NCBI GenBank assembly: GCA_029762575.1
Contig: JARVGL010000003.1
Location: 1 to 55,571, forward strand
Direction of reading: 5' to 3'
DNA: 55,571 nt
Origin: Thermoplasmatota archaeon
GTDB lineage: Archaea > Thermoplasmatota > E2 > DHVEG-1
In this document: piece after piece, positions 33,871 through 42,062 of the stretch
How positions within the stretch are numbered: position 1 is the first letter of the stretch
Layout of the letters: each line of letters starts with the position of its first letter
Made by a program: the position numbers and the translations under genes
Notes under the pieces: generated by a model
Told to the model about the DNA's origin: nothing
Seen by the model: only the letters and a program-made list of their open reading frames with translations
Databases searched by the model: none

Positions 33871-36048
33871 TTATTTGTTTTTTTTGTAAAAATCATAGAT
33901 GTTCTGTGGAAAGGATTCTTGTGTATATGCTGTTTTTCTTATTTCTGGATAATACGTCTGAATGTTTTTTTGAGCTGTTTGTTGTATAGGGCCTTGCTGA
34001 TCTTTTTTGAAGAAGAGCAGTCCAATAAAAAACCCGATGAGGATTCCACCTACTGCCCAGATACCCGCAAAAAAGATCATATACGTAGTGTATTGGATGG
34101 AAGGGGGCAATCGACTTTGACTACCTGAGATGGGTATGCCGACATATCGGGAGGATGTGTTAGATCTGCAACTACTTGAAAGAGTTAATACTCCTGTTAT
34201 CATATTACTATATTTATAGTAAAACAAAGAATTCTCGACATTGGATTCCAAGAGGCTTTCTGCATATTCGTAATAACTTACGGCTAATACTGGTTCAATA
34301 CCCATCGATCGACTTTCGCTGATACCTGCACTTGCGCTTTCATTTGCTCGTTCGAGTTTGCTTTGTATCCGTTCCGTTGTTGTTGCATCAAAGATTTCTA
34401 ATGCAAGATTTCCTTTAGATAATGCTTCTAATGCTTCGAATAATGCTGCAGCATAGTATCCTTCTTCATTGTTCGATCGTGCATTTTCCAGCATTTCTTC
34501 AGCTTCAGTAAGTAATGAAGAAGTTTTTCCAAGTTCTTGGAGGATCACCTGGGAATAGATGATGGATTGTTGCGCATCCTGGATATAGTCGTTAGCCAAC
34601 GATTTCACATCGTCATGTTCAATGTCATTTGTATCGTTGAAAGATGATTGTAGACCAAGCCACCATCCAATGCTTTCCGTTCGTTGTATCGCAAAAGCTA
34701 TTTGGTACAGTGCGTTGAAATCATCATTTCTTTGAAGATTGTTTTGAGCCGCAGAGAGATAGGCTGCTGCCTCTGATGCGCGTTTTTGCGCTGCACCGAC
34801 ACATTGAAGAGAGATTGCACCAGTTACTGGTGTCTGTTTGGCTTTGCTGCTTTCATTTGAGTGATATGATTGAGCATTTGATAGGAGAGTTTCAAGATAG
34901 TTTTCTTTATTATCGCTGGAAAAATATTCACAGGCTAGTGATACGAATCGAGAGTTTATCAACGATTGGAATGATTTACTCGTACTTGAATAATAGAGGT
35001 CCTTTGAGAACCATTCATGAGATTTTATATTGGCGTCTTTTGCATAATTAAGATAATCGGTTATTTGGTTCCGATAATAATAAGGGAAATAATTAGGGAT
35101 GGTTGTTGTGTTAAATGCGTTGCTTGAGTTAGCATAATTTGTTTCTGCTTGTTCTAATAGAGTTGTTGCAAGAGGCTTCATCGAATCGACGTATTGTTCT
35201 GTTGAGATACTATCATTTGAACTGGTGAGAGGAACAGTGTATCCTGTGTAATACTCCAACACATCGTTTATATCCGTAACTTCCGTGACCACGATTCCAT
35301 AGTTTTCCATTGCATAGTCAGTGACGCTTTTTGTAACGGTTCGACTTACGATTTGCTGACCCCATGAGGTTGTGACCGTCTCATATATCTGTTCTGTGTA
35401 TGAATCTTGACCTTCAGGTATGAGAAATCGTGTTGCTCCAACTGAATGAGCTGCATCGATCTTGTAGGGTATACCGCCGATAGGTCCTATGCTTCCATCT
35501 GGATTGATCATGCCGGTCATGACGGTTTTTTCATCCATGTCCCAGTTTTCTAAGAGGGAGATAACCGCCGAGGTCATGATCCCTCCGGCCGATGGTCCTC
35601 CGATGATGGGTGAATCTGTTCGTATGACAAAGAAGTAATCATATGTTGAGGGATTGATAGGACAGTTTTTGTCTTTTGAGACATATGCTGTTGCAACGTT
35701 TACAGCGAGTCGTGCTGATCCTTGCATGTCGATTTGAGCAAGAGGGAGCGTATCGACAAAGACCCGTCCTGAGCCATTTGATTGGATGGTTATGGTTATT
35801 GTTGAGATAACTCCAGTATATCCTTTTGTTGTTTGACCAACGGCTGGAGCATATACTGTGACGTTCCTATATTCTATTGCAAGTTCATCGTTATTTATGA
35901 TGCCTGGGGTGACGATAGCTGTAGATGCAGGGATGATTAGCAAGAAACAAAGGGTAAGGATCTGTAAGAATAGTATCGTTTTTTGTACATGGTTTGAATA
36001 GGTGCCTTTTATGCCGCTATCCTTATTGTTGAGGGTATTTTGCTTCAT
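33871..36048 (-). CDS. Secreted membrane-anchored Lon-type (S16) protease without AAA+ domain
   Basis: Signal peptide; 'DSPIIGGPSAGGIMTSAVISLLENW' (Ser) and 'GGIPYKIDAAHSVGATRFLIPEG' (Lys); C-terminal TM. Confidence 0.85.
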   Translation of the reverse strand: MKQNTLNNKDSGIKGTYSNHVQKTILFLQILTLCFLLIIPASTAIVTPGIINNDELAIEYRNVTVYAPAVGQTTKGYTGVISTITITIQSNGSGRVFVDTLPLAQIDMQGSARLAVNVATAYVSKDKNCPINPSTYDYFFVIRTDSPIIGGPSAGGIMTSAVISLLENWDMDEKTVMTGMINPDGSIGPIGGIPYKIDAAHSVGATRFLIPEGQDSYTEQIYETVTTSWGQQIVSRTVTKSVTDYAMENYGIVVTEVTDINDVLEYYTGYTVPLTSSNDSISTEQYVDSMKPLATTLLEQAETNYANSSNAFNTTTIPNYFPYYYRNQITDYLNYAKDANIKSHEWFSKDLYYSSTSKSFQSLINSRFVSLACEYFSSDNKENYLETLLSNAQSYHSNESSKAKQTPVTGAISLQCVGAAQKRASEAAAYLSAAQNNLQRNDDFNALYQIAFAIQRTESIGWWLGLQSSFNDTNDIEHDDVKSLANDYIQDAQQSIIYSQVILQELGKTSSLLTEAEEMLENARSNNEEGYYAAALFEALEALSKGNLALEIFDATTTERIQSKLERANESASAGISESRSMGIEPVLAVSYYEYAESLLESNVENSLFYYKYSNMITGVLTLSSSCRSNTSSRYVGIPISGSQSRLPPSIQYTTYMIFFAGIWAVGGILIGFFIGLLFFKKDQQGPIQQTAQKNIQTYYPEIRKTAYTQESFPQNIYDFYKKNK

Positions 36049-36162
36049 TTATTTCATCACCATTTTTTTTGATTTCTTACCACGACAGTTATTGTCTTTT
36101 TAGATATAGTGGTCTCTGTTTTTAAGTATGACCTACCATATTCTTATGGTGTGGGGGGGTAG

Positions 36163-36255
36163 GAGAGGGGGAGAAAAAAAGATAAACAAGAGTTTTTCTC
36201 GGGAGGCAAAAGGGAGGGAAAATCCTCAAAAAACTTATGTTTGCAACCCCCTCTC
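36163..36255. other. Nested inverted repeats in G-rich intergenic region (possible structured RNA)
   Basis: GAGAGGGGG (36163-36171)/CCCCCTCTC (36247-36255); nested GAGAAAAA (36171-36178)/TTTTTCTC (36193-36200). Confidence 0.4.
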
Positions 36256-36409
36256 GTTGTAAATATTGTTTGTTGAATCGATGGTAGATGATTCTGCAAT
36301 ACCTTTTTGGGATGATACAGTAGTATAATGGAAAGTTCGGATAGTGGTTTTTCCATTTTTTGAGTTTTTGCCATTGTTTTATCATCTCTTGGTATTTCAG
36401 CCTTTTAGC

Positions 36410-36424
36410 GTTACACAATGTAAC
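36410..36424. promoter_or_regulatory. BlaI-type operator candidate (distal)
   Basis: GTTACA-CAA-TGTAAC perfect 6-bp dyad. Confidence 0.45.
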
Positions 36425-36512
36425 ACTACGAATTATAGTATATATGATGTCATATAAATAATTTTCCCATCAATCCGTAAAAATCTCGGAAAAATAATAG
36501 TAATAGTAATAT

Positions 36513-36528
36513 GTCTACAATATGTAAC
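36513..36528. promoter_or_regulatory. BlaI-type operator candidate (proximal)
   Basis: GTCTACA-ATA-TGTAAC containing TACA-N3-TGTA, just upstream of TATA-like 'tataaata' and ATG 36572. Confidence 0.5.
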
Positions 36529-36571
36529 GTGACAAAGTATAAATACTATGTTTTTATTCTAAAATATATAT

Positions 36572-36955
36572 ATGATTAAAAACATCGGACCACTAGAACA
36601 AAAGATACTGGCAATCCTCTGGCAGAACCATGAAGCAACAGCACGAGATATTTGCAGTAGTCTAGAGGAACTAGGTGAACGAAGGGCATATTCCACCGTT
36701 CGAACGATAATAAACAGGCTCGTAAAGAAAAATATCGTCAGCCAACGATTAGATCCAACAGAAAGAATATATATTTATACCCCTATTTATACAAAAGGCG
36801 AGCTTGAAAAAAGGATCATTCACGGTCTCTTAGGTGAAATGCTAAGGAAGTTTGAACAAAGTACCATTAACTATCTTGCAGAAGAACTATCAGAAGATGA
36901 AGAGGAGATAAAAAGAATAAAGCAAAGGCTTGCTGAGATGAAAAAACATGGCTGA
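36572..36955 (+). CDS. BlaI/MecI-family winged-helix repressor
   Basis: 'LGPLEQKILAILWQNHEATARDICSSLEELGERRAYSTVRTIINRLVKKNIV' is the Penicillinase_R signature. Confidence 0.9.
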   Translation: MIKNIGPLEQKILAILWQNHEATARDICSSLEELGERRAYSTVRTIINRLVKKNIVSQRLDPTERIYIYTPIYTKGELEKRIIHGLLGEMLRKFEQSTINYLAEELSEDEEEIKRIKQRLAEMKKHG

Positions 36956-38612
36956 AGAAATCCTAACACTTATCGGTATCTCAATAGTGCTATCATTCGT
37001 AGTGTTCTTATCAGCAAACTTTTTAATAAATATAGGGCGCATCAAACACCCTAAAAACCGATTTTCGATTTACCTTATAGTCATTGTGACCATTACTGCT
37101 ATCATCTATGCTCCCCTCTTATCGATGCCTGCCATCTTGTCAAAGGAACCATCACAGATGCAAAACAATTGCTTCGATAACGACTCGCCACCGGTATCAT
37201 TGATGGTAAGCTATGGTAATGAGGAAATGATCTTTCAATCTCCCCTTGAAAATATCATAACCGGTGTCGCATCCTCATCCCGTTCAGACGAAGAAAGTGT
37301 AAATCCTACAGATTCGATGAATTCATCCCTTCAAAGAGCAGTATGTATCTCAATCCTCTACGAGAAATTCTTTAAAAATGGTAACAACTGCTCATTTAAC
37401 ACACTCTTAAAAAGATATGACCTTCAACTTGATGAAAAAAAGATACAGCAATCTAGTGTTAGCGCGATTCTAGCAGAGATCATTGCATTGCAACTAAACA
37501 CCTCACTTTCAGAGTATTCTTCCTATCCTATCACTTGTAAATTCGTCCTCAACAGTGGACAAGACAACGAGAATCAGACCTCTGCGTCATTATCTGTTCC
37601 CCCTTCCCAAACCCAAAATGAACCCCCGTTCCTTTGGCTTTATCTAGGGCTCTATAGCCTCTTGATCATAGGTGTCATATATCTTTTCTTCAGTCTTACC
37701 CTTGGAAAAAAAATGACACTTAAAGCTCTTCAAGCAAAACCTTGCAAAGACGACTCAATTCTTTCCATTATCCGGGAAGTATCCAAGCAGATGAACATTT
37801 CTATGCCAAACGTGTTCATCTCACAAGGAAATCCCAATGCGTTTGTCTTTGGCTTTCCTGTTACCCTTGTTCTCTCACAAAACCTTCTTTCATTGTTAAC
37901 AAAAGAAGAACTAGAGATGACCGTACGTCATGAACTATCACATATAAAGAACAAGGATATATTCATAAAACCTGCATTACAAATGCTTCGCATCATCCTC
38001 TGTTTCAACCCCATCATCCATCTTATCGTCCCAAGAATGTTAAAACAACGGGAGACAATGGCCGATGTCCTCTCATTTTCAAATAAAAAGGATAAGATCA
38101 CCTTTATGGATGCACTGATAAAGATAGAAGAATTCATGATTCGTGCGCCGGCAAAACCTTGCTTATTCCCTTTGCCGAGTGCCTCATCGCTTTTAGATCA
38201 TACGAAAAAACAACCATCCCTTGAAGATCGCTTCAACTGTTTATTTGAAGATACCCATCCGAAGCGTTTCCTCTCTGTTTCAATATGCCTTCTTTTGATC
38301 ATAACAAATCTCTCCATCATGGCTGTTGCATATCAAGTCGTTGCCCCCACGGCTCCTGCACAAACGCCTCTTGATATGATGAATGGTACAGAGTGTATGC
38401 CACAAAAGGAAAGCTACATCTATGAATGTACCTTTTATGTTGGCGACCATGATATCATGTGCCAAGAGATCGTCATGTTCAAATCTGATCTTGGCAGAGG
38501 GAGTTGGATACAGTATCAAACAGAGATATTGCCGCTAGCTCCATATCTTTTTACAAACGCATATATGTATCCCCAACCTTTAACTGAAGAAACATATGAA
38601 CCAAATTTTTAA
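36948..38612 (+). CDS. BlaR1/MecR1-like M56 membrane metalloprotease
   Basis: Multi-TM; 'LEMTVRHELSHIKNKDIFIKP' (HExxH), 'RMLKQRETMADVLSF'; overlaps the BlaI-like gene by 8 bp; no PBP-like sensor. Confidence 0.88.
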   Translation: MAEEILTLIGISIVLSFVVFLSANFLINIGRIKHPKNRFSIYLIVIVTITAIIYAPLLSMPAILSKEPSQMQNNCFDNDSPPVSLMVSYGNEEMIFQSPLENIITGVASSSRSDEESVNPTDSMNSSLQRAVCISILYEKFFKNGNNCSFNTLLKRYDLQLDEKKIQQSSVSAILAEIIALQLNTSLSEYSSYPITCKFVLNSGQDNENQTSASLSVPPSQTQNEPPFLWLYLGLYSLLIIGVIYLFFSLTLGKKMTLKALQAKPCKDDSILSIIREVSKQMNISMPNVFISQGNPNAFVFGFPVTLVLSQNLLSLLTKEELEMTVRHELSHIKNKDIFIKPALQMLRIILCFNPIIHLIVPRMLKQRETMADVLSFSNKKDKITFMDALIKIEEFMIRAPAKPCLFPLPSASSLLDHTKKQPSLEDRFNCLFEDTHPKRFLSVSICLLLIITNLSIMAVAYQVVAPTAPAQTPLDMMNGTECMPQKESYIYECTFYVGDHDIMCQEIVMFKSDLGRGSWIQYQTEILPLAPYLFTNAYMYPQPLTEETYEPNF

Positions 38613-38705: not shown

Positions 38706-38755
38706 TTCATCACGCTATGAAATATAATAAATATCGATAAATGGAGGCAAGAGAC

Positions 38756-40573
38756 ATGGTCCAATTACATGAATTGATTTTAAGAGATGCTCATCAGTCT
38801 ATGCTTGCAACAAGAATGCGAACAGAAGACATGTTACCCATTGCAGACAAACTTGATCAAGTTGGATATTTCTCCATGGAAGTATGGGGTGGTGCAACCT
38901 TTGATGTTTGCATCAGATATCTCAATCAGGATCCCTGGGAGCGTCTACGACTCTTGAAAAAAGCAATGCCCAACACACCCTTACAAATGCTTGAACGGGC
39001 AATGAACATTGTGGCATACTGGAATTTCCCCGATGACGTTGTAAAAAAATTCATTTTCCTTGCAAAGAAGAATGGTATCGATTACTTTAGGATATTTGAT
39101 GCGTTAAACGATCTTCGAAACATGCAAGTCCCAATGAAGACAGCAAAAGATGAAGGGGGTCATGTACAAGCCTGCCTCAGTTATACCATATCACCGATAC
39201 ACACCGTTGACTATTTTGTTGAAAAATTCAAGAAGCTCGAAAAGATGGGAGCAGATTCACTCTGCATCAAGGATATGGCAGGTATGATCTCCCCTCAACG
39301 AGCCTATGACATCATCAAAGGAGTCAAAGATGCAGGTGTGAAGATACCAATCGATCTTCATTCCCATTACACCAGCGGTATGACTGGAATGGCCTATCAA
39401 AGAGCAGTTGAGGCCGGTGTTGACATACTTGATGGTGCAATCTCACCAATCTCCGGTGGTACTGCTGCACCTGCAACAGAAAGCATCGTTGCAGCACTAC
39501 AAGGAACAGAATGGGATACAAACTATGATCTGGAACTACTAATAGAAATACGAAAATATTTCCTTGAAATATGGGATAAATATCGGCATTTACATCGCTT
39601 TAATGCACTCAAGGTCGACCCAAGTGTTACCCTTCATCAAGTCCCCGGCGGCATGCTTTCAAACCTGATCTTTCAACTGGAACAACAAGGCGCACATGGA
39701 AAATACCAGGAGATCCTCCTAGAGACCGCACGGGTCCGTGAGGAATTAGGATATCCTCCTTTGGTCACACCAACAAGTCAAGTTGTTGGAGTCCAAGCGG
39801 TCATGAATGTGCTACATGGACGTTACAAGGTCATTACAAAGGAAACAAAGGATTACTGCCGTGGTATGTATGGCCAACCACCAGGGAAGATCGACCCAAA
39901 GATCATGAAAGCGGTCCTTGGAAAAGATTGGAAGGACGAGGTCATTGATTGCAGACCTTCTGATCTTTTAAAACCAATGTGGAGCACCAGGAAATCTGAA
40001 CTTAAAGAACATTCAGATATCGAGATCACTGAAGAGAACATCATGACCTATGCAATCTATCCACAAGTAGGTTTGAAATACCTTAAAGGTGAGGCAACTG
40101 CTGAGTTTACCTCTGCAGAGTTACCTCTCCCTATCACACATCCTTTGATACGCGGGATGGTAAAACAATCATTCCCTAAGGAAAAAGAATTATGGTTAGA
40201 GAACGAACCTCCAGAGAATAGATCTGGACCTGCGCAGATCCCTACAGAGTTTGAGGTTGAGGTAGATGGTGAACCTTTCGAAGTCAAGGTCACTCCAACG
40301 GGTGGATTCCTTGTTGCAGGGGGTTCAGGCGCTGTGGCAGCACAAAAACCAAAGGATGTAGAAGGCGGTGTGAAATCAAACATGCAAGGTACGATTCTCA
40401 AAATAAAGGTTAAAAATGGTGATAAGGTCAAGAAAGGAGATGTCCTTGCTACCATTGAAGCGATGAAGATGGAGCAAGAGATCCTCTCAGAAAAAGATGG
40501 AGAGGTCAAAGACGTCTTCATCAAAGAAGGAGCTGCAGTGAACAACGGTGATGTGTTAATGCAGATCCTTTAA
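38756..40573 (+). CDS. pycB: Pyruvate carboxylase subunit B (carboxyltransferase + biotin carrier)
   Basis: 'LHELILRDAHQSMLATRMRTEDML', 'IDLHSHYTSGMTGMAY', C-terminal 'ATIEAMKMEQEI'; GGAGG at 38743 serves ATG 38756. Confidence 0.95.
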   Translation: MVQLHELILRDAHQSMLATRMRTEDMLPIADKLDQVGYFSMEVWGGATFDVCIRYLNQDPWERLRLLKKAMPNTPLQMLERAMNIVAYWNFPDDVVKKFIFLAKKNGIDYFRIFDALNDLRNMQVPMKTAKDEGGHVQACLSYTISPIHTVDYFVEKFKKLEKMGADSLCIKDMAGMISPQRAYDIIKGVKDAGVKIPIDLHSHYTSGMTGMAYQRAVEAGVDILDGAISPISGGTAAPATESIVAALQGTEWDTNYDLELLIEIRKYFLEIWDKYRHLHRFNALKVDPSVTLHQVPGGMLSNLIFQLEQQGAHGKYQEILLETARVREELGYPPLVTPTSQVVGVQAVMNVLHGRYKVITKETKDYCRGMYGQPPGKIDPKIMKAVLGKDWKDEVIDCRPSDLLKPMWSTRKSELKEHSDIEITEENIMTYAIYPQVGLKYLKGEATAEFTSAELPLPITHPLIRGMVKQSFPKEKELWLENEPPENRSGPAQIPTEFEVEVDGEPFEVKVTPTGGFLVAGGSGAVAAQKPKDVEGGVKSNMQGTILKIKVKNGDKVKKGDVLATIEAMKMEQEILSEKDGEVKDVFIKEGAAVNNGDVLMQIL

Positions 40574-40601
40574 GGTTGTAACTGTAGGAAGTGAATATTT
40601 C

Positions 40602-42062
40602 ATGTTAAATAAGGTTCTGATTGCAAACCGAGGGGAGATAGCCGTCCGGATCATGAGGGCCTGCAAGGAATTAGGCATACAGACGGTTGCAGTATACTCT
40701 GATGCGGATAAGAACGCATTGTTTGTCAAATATGCGGACGAGAAATATAACATCGGTCCGGGTCCTGCAAGTCAAAGCTATCTAAAAAAAGAGGCAATTA
40801 TCGATGTTGCATTGAAAACCGGTACGCAGGGCATACATCCAGGCTACGGGTTCATGGCAGAGAATGCGGATTTTGCAGAGATGTGTCATAAGAATGGTAT
40901 CGAGTTCATCGGTCCCCCAGTTTCTGCTATGAGACTGATGTGTTCAAAGATCGATTCAAAGAAATCAATGATACAAGCCGGTGTCCATGTTGTACCAGGG
41001 GTGACTGAGGCTATCAGTGATCATGAACGAGCAAAGGATATCGCATGCGAAATTGGTTTTCCTGTCATGCTCAAAGCATCTGCTGGCGGTGGCGGTATTG
41101 GTATTAGAAAGGTCGATGATGAGAAAGAGATGGAGAAAGCATTAGCTAGTGTACGTCAACTCGCTAAGAACAGTTTTGGTGATGACTCCGTGTTCATTGA
41201 GAAGTTCATCGATGACCCACGACATATCGAATACCAGATTATTGGTGATAAAAAAGGCCATATCATTCATTGTTATGAACGTGAATGTAGTGTCCAACGT
41301 CGTCATCAGAAGCTCATCGAAGAGACCCCGTCCTGTGCGTTGACCCCAGATCTTCGTGAAGAGATTGGGAAACAGGCGGTGCTTGCTGCAAAGACCGCAG
41401 GATACTATAATGCAGGAACCTGCGAGTTCATGTTTAAGGATGGTAAATATTTTTTCCTTGAGATGAACACACGTTTACAGGTTGAACATCCTATAACAGA
41501 GGCTATCACTGGTGTGGATCTTGCAAGAGAACAGTTACGGGTAGCCTCAGGTCTTGATCTGGAATATGGACAATCGGATATCAAACCCCGTGGTCATTCC
41601 ATTGAATGCCGTATCAATGCAGAGGACCCTCTTAATAACTTCATGCCAGCGCCTAGTAAGATAGTTCGATATGCTGAACCAAGCGGGCCAGGTATCCGAG
41701 TTGATACAGGCGTATATCAAGGCTTTACTATTCCTCCGTTCTATGATTCTATGATAGCAAAACTTATCATATGGGCAGAAGACAGACCACGTGCCATCGC
41801 AAGGACAAAAAGAGCGCTCTGGGAGTTTCAGATCGGTGGTGTTCGACATAATATCCCATTCCATGAGATCGTCATGGATGACCCTCAATGGATCAAAGGC
41901 AACTATAATACGAGTTTCATCCCCCGATATAAGATCCTTGATAGGGTTGTTGAGTATGTAAAAGCCAAGAAAACCCAATCATCATCTCCTAAGGTAGCTG
42001 CGGCTATGGCTGCAGTTCAAGCAGTCAATGCTTCATTTATAAGTTCACAAAAGAAAAAATAG
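40602..42062 (+). CDS. pycA: Pyruvate carboxylase subunit A (biotin carboxylase)
   Basis: 'LIANRGEIAVRIMRACKELGIQTVAVYSDAD', 'LKASAGGGGIGIRKV', 'FLEMNTRLQVEHPITE'. Confidence 0.96.
   Translation: MLNKVLIANRGEIAVRIMRACKELGIQTVAVYSDADKNALFVKYADEKYNIGPGPASQSYLKKEAIIDVALKTGTQGIHPGYGFMAENADFAEMCHKNGIEFIGPPVSAMRLMCSKIDSKKSMIQAGVHVVPGVTEAISDHERAKDIACEIGFPVMLKASAGGGGIGIRKVDDEKEMEKALASVRQLAKNSFGDDSVFIEKFIDDPRHIEYQIIGDKKGHIIHCYERECSVQRRHQKLIEETPSCALTPDLREEIGKQAVLAAKTAGYYNAGTCEFMFKDGKYFFLEMNTRLQVEHPITEAITGVDLAREQLRVASGLDLEYGQSDIKPRGHSIECRINAEDPLNNFMPAPSKIVRYAEPSGPGIRVDTGVYQGFTIPPFYDSMIAKLIIWAEDRPRAIARTKRALWEFQIGGVRHNIPFHEIVMDDPQWIKGNYNTSFIPRYKILDRVVEYVKAKKTQSSSPKVAAAMAAVQAVNASFISSQKKK

Follow-up and report, generated by a model that had tools for sequence, protein, structure and literature searches.

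A BlaI-M56 repressor-protease locus in Thermoplasmatota archaea, with conserved operators and candidate envelope and RNA outputs

In Staphylococcus and Bacillus, the BlaI-BlaR1 and MecI-MecR1 systems place a repressor gene beside that of an M56 membrane protease, which has a four-TM layout and carries HEXXH, EXXXD, and an extra Asp, and TACA/TGTA operators lie at the system's own promoter. All of these features, the four-TM layout as a prediction, are shared by a locus in the stretch of Thermoplasmatota DNA analyzed here (55,571 nucleotides; hereafter the window). Unlike the bacterial systems, it has no penicillin sensor and belongs to an archaeal host without penicillin-binding proteins (PBPs); in addition, its dyads have a 3-bp spacer, its operators are set on TATA boxes, and its targets appear to be envelope genes and a candidate RNA rather than beta-lactamase or PBP2a. 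Because the penicillin sensor is the defining part of BlaR1, we class the locus apart from it. M56 proteins that lack a PBP domain have precedent, the short mycobacterial BlaR being an example. Also known is a membrane-protease-gated envelope stress response with small RNAs, bacterial sigma-E/DegS, which works through anti-sigma cleavage. Two further groups of repressors invite comparison. The regulons of BlaI_0696 and BlaI_1845 in Clostridium thermocellum are small and autoregulated, as proposed for the present one, with operators ordered for four protomers, but they use the half-sites GTCTAT/GACTAT and bacterial promoters (PMC8457756). CopR/CopY belongs to the same repressor superfamily and shares TACA...TGTA half-sites (with a 2-bp spacer in the CopY consensus), but senses copper by CXC motifs and has no M56 partner (PMC7253601). 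In the open-licence literature that we searched, nothing dealt directly with archaeal BlaI-M56 pairs, which is weak evidence of novelty.

A preliminary description of this DNA had proposed a Penicillinase_R repressor gene overlapping by 8 bp the gene of an M56 (HELSH) protease, and both open reading frames, which lie on the plus strand, and both Pfam families were borne out (Table 1). The repressor match exceeded the curated cut-off and covered residues 5-121 of 127, a full-length match to the winged-helix domain, and a profile search against the PDB returned BlaI (1sd4, E=1.5e-10) as well as MecI (1okr). It is the sole Penicillinase_R protein of its genome. A CopR/CopY identity was rejected because the sequence has no CXC metal-binding motif and scored 50 bits with NCBIfam TIGR02698, below the cut-off of 122. 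Among the repressor orthologs, which are 55-69% identical to that of the window, the stretch S-T-I-x-Y101-L102 is invariant; it aligns with the BlaI/MecI cleavage region (near residues 101-102). The protease likewise exceeded the curated Pfam cut-off, and its solved relatives in profile searches were BlaR1 (8exp/8exs, E=4e-6) and HtpX (3cqb). Its H328ELSH332, D337, and E369xxxD373 match the catalytic residues H201EXXH, D210, and E242XXXD of BlaR1 (PMC9834060), and H328-E329-x-x-H332, D337, and E369-x-x-x-D373 are invariant across the seven M56 orthologs described below. NCBIfam returned BlaI/CopY and BlaR1/HtpX relatives for the pair, all far under any equivalog cut-off (for blaR1_generic, 50 bits versus 400). 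We rejected an HtpX/Ste24 (M48) identity for the protease, as the M48 match covered residues 267-371 only and HtpX models scored about 52 bits against cut-offs of at least 245. An AlphaFold model built on seven sequences only had a mean pLDDT of 56, rising to about 80-95 in the protease core. Its four long helices (residues 2-29, 35-59, 228-260, and 440-465) stand in the places expected from BlaR1, whose protease is set between TM3 and TM4 and whose two ends are outside. Foldseek ranked BlaR1 cryo-EM structures best (E=3e-5) and ZMPSTE24 next, with overall TM-scores that were low because of the unstructured parts. By homology, the active site would lie on the cytosolic side.

The Thermoplasmatota survey of such pairs proposed in the preliminary description was carried out by seeking orthologs of the M56 protein in 390 sampled genomes with an alignment query. 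They were rare and patchy, with seven carriers: the window genome (G000) and G016 from the same genus, G009, G038, and G039 from the same family, G005 from the same order, and G172 from the same class (named records include Thermoplasmata archaea AUK221, AUK189, and B44_G15, Thermoplasmatales bin105, and Thermoplasmatota GSL3510_11). The orthologs are 26-34% identical to the window protease and keep the 8-bp overlap with blaI, and this recurrence takes the pairing beyond chance. Contig L126 (JAFCDH010000079.1), labelled Pacearchaeota, carries a Thermoplasmatota BlaI-M56 locus with G038-type neighbors and is probably misbinned. In G039 the M56 gene (L058 2184-3659) contains in-frame stops, due to either an assembly error or recent pseudogene formation, whereas blaI and the operators are intact there. 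These stops and the patchy distribution are what one would expect if the pair were a decayed or incidental horizontal acquisition, functionless in these archaea; yet catalytic residues, gene overlap, and operators have been kept in several genera despite the low protease identity, and we consider such decay highly improbable. Downstream of blaI-M56, both the window (38741-42062, plus strand) and, beyond one extra gene, G016 encode subunits of the pyruvate carboxylase or oxaloacetate decarboxylase type; no operator was found between the pair and these genes.

Table 1. Features of the blaI-M56 locus and its surroundings (window coordinates).
Feature	Coordinates	Strand	Evidence
Extracytoplasmic Lon-like (S16) serine protease, signal peptide, C-terminal TM	33871..36048	-	PF05362 E=1e-11
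Putative BlaI-controlled RNA (small RNA or structured leader), approximate ends	36138..36430	-	fold z=-2.46; operator and hairpin statistics
Long hairpin GAGAGGGGG...CCCCCTCTC enclosing two CCTCC (36202-36206, 36213-36217)	36163..36255	-	helix search, p=0.04 alone
Distal (target-type) operator TATAATTCGTAGTGTTACATTGTGTA	36412..36437	-	same element in G016, G009, G038, G039, G005, G172
TATA box TTTATATG of distal minus-strand promoter	36451..36458	-	TATA-operator order common to 12 target-type sites
Proximal (self) operator TACAATATGTAACGTGACAAAGTATA, last half-site merged with TATA box	36516..36541	+	conserved in 7/7 carriers and L126
TATA box TATAAATA of blaI-M56 promoter	36538..36545	+	sequence; conserved in self-type sites
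BlaI-type repressor (Penicillinase_R, winged helix), 127 aa	36572..36955	+	PF03965 E=5e-21
M56 membrane metalloprotease, 554 aa	36948..38612	+	PF05569 E=1e-17
Loop of ~167 residues where BlaR1 has EL1, variable and matching no known domain	37125..37631	+	topology, model, domain searches
~89-residue tail past last TM, no penicillin-binding motifs	38340..38609	+	motif and domain searches

We then considered what the protease might sense. As had been claimed, the tail of about 90 residues is free of a PBP domain: SxxK, SxN, and KTG motifs are absent from its ~89 residues after TM4, it matches no domain, and the ortholog tails (about 54-89 residues) are without SxxK. Judged from its sequence, the window M56 is thus devoid of the C-terminal penicillin-binding (class D-like) sensor. 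The contrast drawn with PBP-sensing systems also stood at the genome level, where a PF00905 transpeptidase occurs in 0 of the 7 carriers, which makes a PBP-type ligand unlikely. The preliminary description had further pointed to a Cys-containing loop of about 170 residues as an ectodomain. A loop of about 167 residues with four Cys is indeed present between TM2 and TM3, in the place that EL1, the extracellular loop linking helices 2 and 3, holds in BlaR1 (residues 56-96; PMC9834060), but its role as a sensor ectodomain was not upheld. Residues 59-226 and 461-554 have pLDDT <50 almost throughout, loop and tail gave no significant match in Pfam or the PDB, and neither domain search nor structure prediction turned up a PBP-like or already described sensor domain in them. 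One or the other could instead be a real lineage-specific ligand-binding sensor of undescribed fold, as was originally suggested: both would lie outside the membrane, some orthologs have paired Cys, and the model shows a short beta-hairpin in the tail. This we hold to be quite improbable in view of the low-confidence model, the missing domain matches, and an ortholog loop that ranges from about 64 to 167 residues (more than 2-fold) and from 0 to 5 Cys with no conserved columns. We therefore find no support for a conserved, folded sensor in the loop; a small domain is possible, as the model was built on so few sequences. Sensing probably runs through the membrane part, through the loop or tail as flexible segments, or through a partner.

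Upstream of blaI we found a 26-bp element with four half-sites, TACA-N3-TGTA-N4-TACA-N3-TRTA. Operators, likely regulon, and candidate RNA had all been missed in the preliminary description; its start, 36410, coincides with the distal operator, which it does not mention. In the self promoters of the carriers, TACA-N3-TGTA is followed by a conserved stretch and then the TATA box. When two mismatches were allowed, the pattern occurred in 7/7 carriers versus 29/383 other genomes, where a reversed control pattern was about as frequent; when one was allowed, five carriers retained it and G130 was the sole other genome to have it. The G130 site (C94:8214-8239; L159 ~4715) is a perfect 26-bp match near a LamG-like secreted protein, and the BlaI-M56 pair was not found in this 54% complete genome. 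A single dyad, TACANNNTGTA, was uninformative over the genome of the window: its 28 sites were mostly intragenic and were outnumbered by the 41 of the reversed control, hence the need for the longer motif. Two candidate sites were dropped, C13:315 near an asparaginase-like gene because the second dyad is missing, and C161:23361 because it is located within a gene. The only convincing operators of this genome are the two beside blaI, and the protein-coding regulon was therefore deduced from relatives.

A second type of site, to which the distal operator belongs, sits at orthologous or other places in these relatives. In its 12 instances, a TATA box is followed after about 13-17 bp by the operator and then the transcribed region; six instances precede genes for envelope or secreted proteins, and six precede non-coding segments. 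In both G005 and G172, next to blaI-M56, such sites lie directly before a gene for a transglutaminase/LapG-like protein and also before an operon that encodes a permease of the FtsX/MacB type, a LolD-like ATPase, and a membrane protein with a coiled coil (a LolCDE/MacB-like ABC system). In G039 they precede genes for two secreted proteins, one of the beta-helix kind and the other with a PKD domain. The BlaI regulon is thus likely to be envelope-related. In G038, a gene divergent from blaI-M56 (L059 4916-7141, minus strand) encodes a caspase-domain (Peptidase_C14) protein with NosD/beta-helix repeats.

The distal operator might serve blaI itself, as a second operator/promoter that strengthens autoregulation by looping, in which case the hairpin and CCTCC motifs described below would be incidental. 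Two operators are common at bacterial BlaI/CopY promoters (PMC7253601), and self and distal sites are 92-114 bp apart in four genomes. The G009 element, however, is located away from blaI, with the distal place of the G009 blaI promoter empty, and more copies are found elsewhere in G039. Protein-coding targets share the TATA-operator order, the strand of the distal site points away from blaI, and the helix and CCTCC statistics speak against the motifs being incidental. We therefore judge a looping role improbable.

Behind each of the six non-coding sites (the distal operator of the window, sites in G016, G009, and G038, and two in G039) come 150-280 nt in which no ORF is conserved. A conserved small peptide from the distal transcript was discarded, as the ORFs of 58-98 aa in G000, G016, and G009 look unrelated, and no Rfam family was found for the segment. 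Each segment carries two sense-strand CCTCC motifs, giving 12 observed versus 1.7 expected (0 of 1000 shuffle sets reached 12). Segment lengths for this count were initially picked by eye; at fixed lengths, the counts were 11 (200 nt) and 12 (250 nt), versus 0 behind the six sites whose targets are protein-coding. When the best uninterrupted long-range helix within 280 nt was sought mechanically, the p-values were 0.040 (window), 0.007, 0.007, 0.099, 0.007, and 0.020, compared with 0.21-0.61 for four protein-coding control sites. The Fisher-combined p was 2e-6 over the six sites, in an exploratory search where these sites form two groups of related loci and not six independent events. The CCTCC motifs lie within the hairpin loop in all but one of the six cases, and T-runs follow the G039 and G038 segments. 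Alignment across genomes is limited to the first ~30-57 nt, which are largely operator, so the hairpin with CCUCC has been kept while the letters changed. In G039, a region of contig C274 (L082 600-2200) has no long ORFs but two similar stretches about 900 bp apart, each with a TTGATTGGTA-type inverted repeat, and one of these stretches carries the operator. An SD-like motif precedes only 11 of the 39 window genes. On these sequence features, the case for an independent small RNA behind the distal operator comes close to an even prospect without quite reaching it. Given such an RNA, we regard the chances that it acts against Shine-Dalgarno sequences via its CCUCC loop as evenly balanced. An archaeal RNA thought to mask a ribosome binding site has been described in Methanosarcina mazei, sRNA162 (PMC3510493); the candidate has no sequence relation to it, and differs in the BlaI operator in its promoter and in the placement of CCUCC in a hairpin loop.

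In the window, the segment lies between blaI and a gene for a Lon-like protease with a PSAGG catalytic motif and a long helical region but no ATPase domain. The segment could be the long 5' leader of the Lon-like mRNA, making the output an extra extracytoplasmic protease that would clear damaged secreted proteins. It stands 250-380 nt before this gene on the same strand in G000, G016, and G009, and in G009 it stays with the Lon-like gene though blaI-M56 is on another contig. Against this, a nearer TATA-like TTAAAAAC occurs at the Lon-like gene, the G039 element runs towards a convergent gene and has a stem and T-run at its end, and the next gene in G038, about 500 nt away, is that of the caspase-domain protein. 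Overall, we regard a leader role as unlikely, though worth weighing. Within the order, 47 of the 52 genomes carry the Lon-like gene. Among 30 such loci examined, a conserved operator was seen upstream only in G000, G016, and G009, all three of which carry blaI-M56; the 27 Lon-like loci from genomes in which the pair was not found had no conserved site (one has almost no upstream sequence). It is possible that the Lon-like gene is a read-through target of the distal promoter.

Taken together, these data are consistent with the view that BlaI and M56 form an autoregulated proteolysis switch, which we consider very probable. Two BlaI dimers would occupy the 26-bp operator at the TATA box or start region and would block transcription initiation at the level of TBP/TFB or polymerase. 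M56 would stay inactive until an envelope or membrane signal arrives via its membrane and outer parts; it is solely from the targets that we infer envelope or membrane damage as this signal. Activated M56 would then cleave BlaI, by homology probably near Tyr101-Leu102, and derepression would raise blaI-M56 expression along with a lineage-specific output. This output would consist of the transglutaminase-like protein and the LolCDE/MacB-like ABC transporter in G005 and G172, of secreted proteins in G039, and of a small RNA (or structured leader) in the window's family, where CCUCC loops could mask Shine-Dalgarno (GGAGG) sequences. As an overall explanation, an archaeal regulated-proteolysis switch with envelope and RNA outputs is the best that we can offer, and fairly probable. 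The full joint proposal, that protease-relieved BlaI controls both anti-Shine-Dalgarno CCUCC small RNAs and envelope-maintenance proteins, in an archaeal response to envelope stress that would include an RNA arm and whose parts are unrelated to those of bacterial sigma-E, is put forward tentatively, as plausible rather than probable. The likeness to sigma-E/DegS would lie in a protease-gated regulator, envelope outputs, and, if the candidate RNA is real, the RNA arm; no parts are shared, and the proposed cleavage is of a repressor here and of an anti-sigma factor there.

How trouble at the archaeal cell surface is sensed and passed on to transcription is poorly known, and the locus is a compact, testable candidate: it supplies a sensor protease and a repressor, gives the operator letter by letter, and has candidate outputs in several genomes. 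With its likely regulon and candidate RNA it goes beyond a mere distant BlaI/M56 homolog, and a repressor-controlled archaeal small RNA is nominated. More broadly, the findings suggest that the BlaI/M56 module may be a general device for envelope signals, of which beta-lactam sensing would be one special case.
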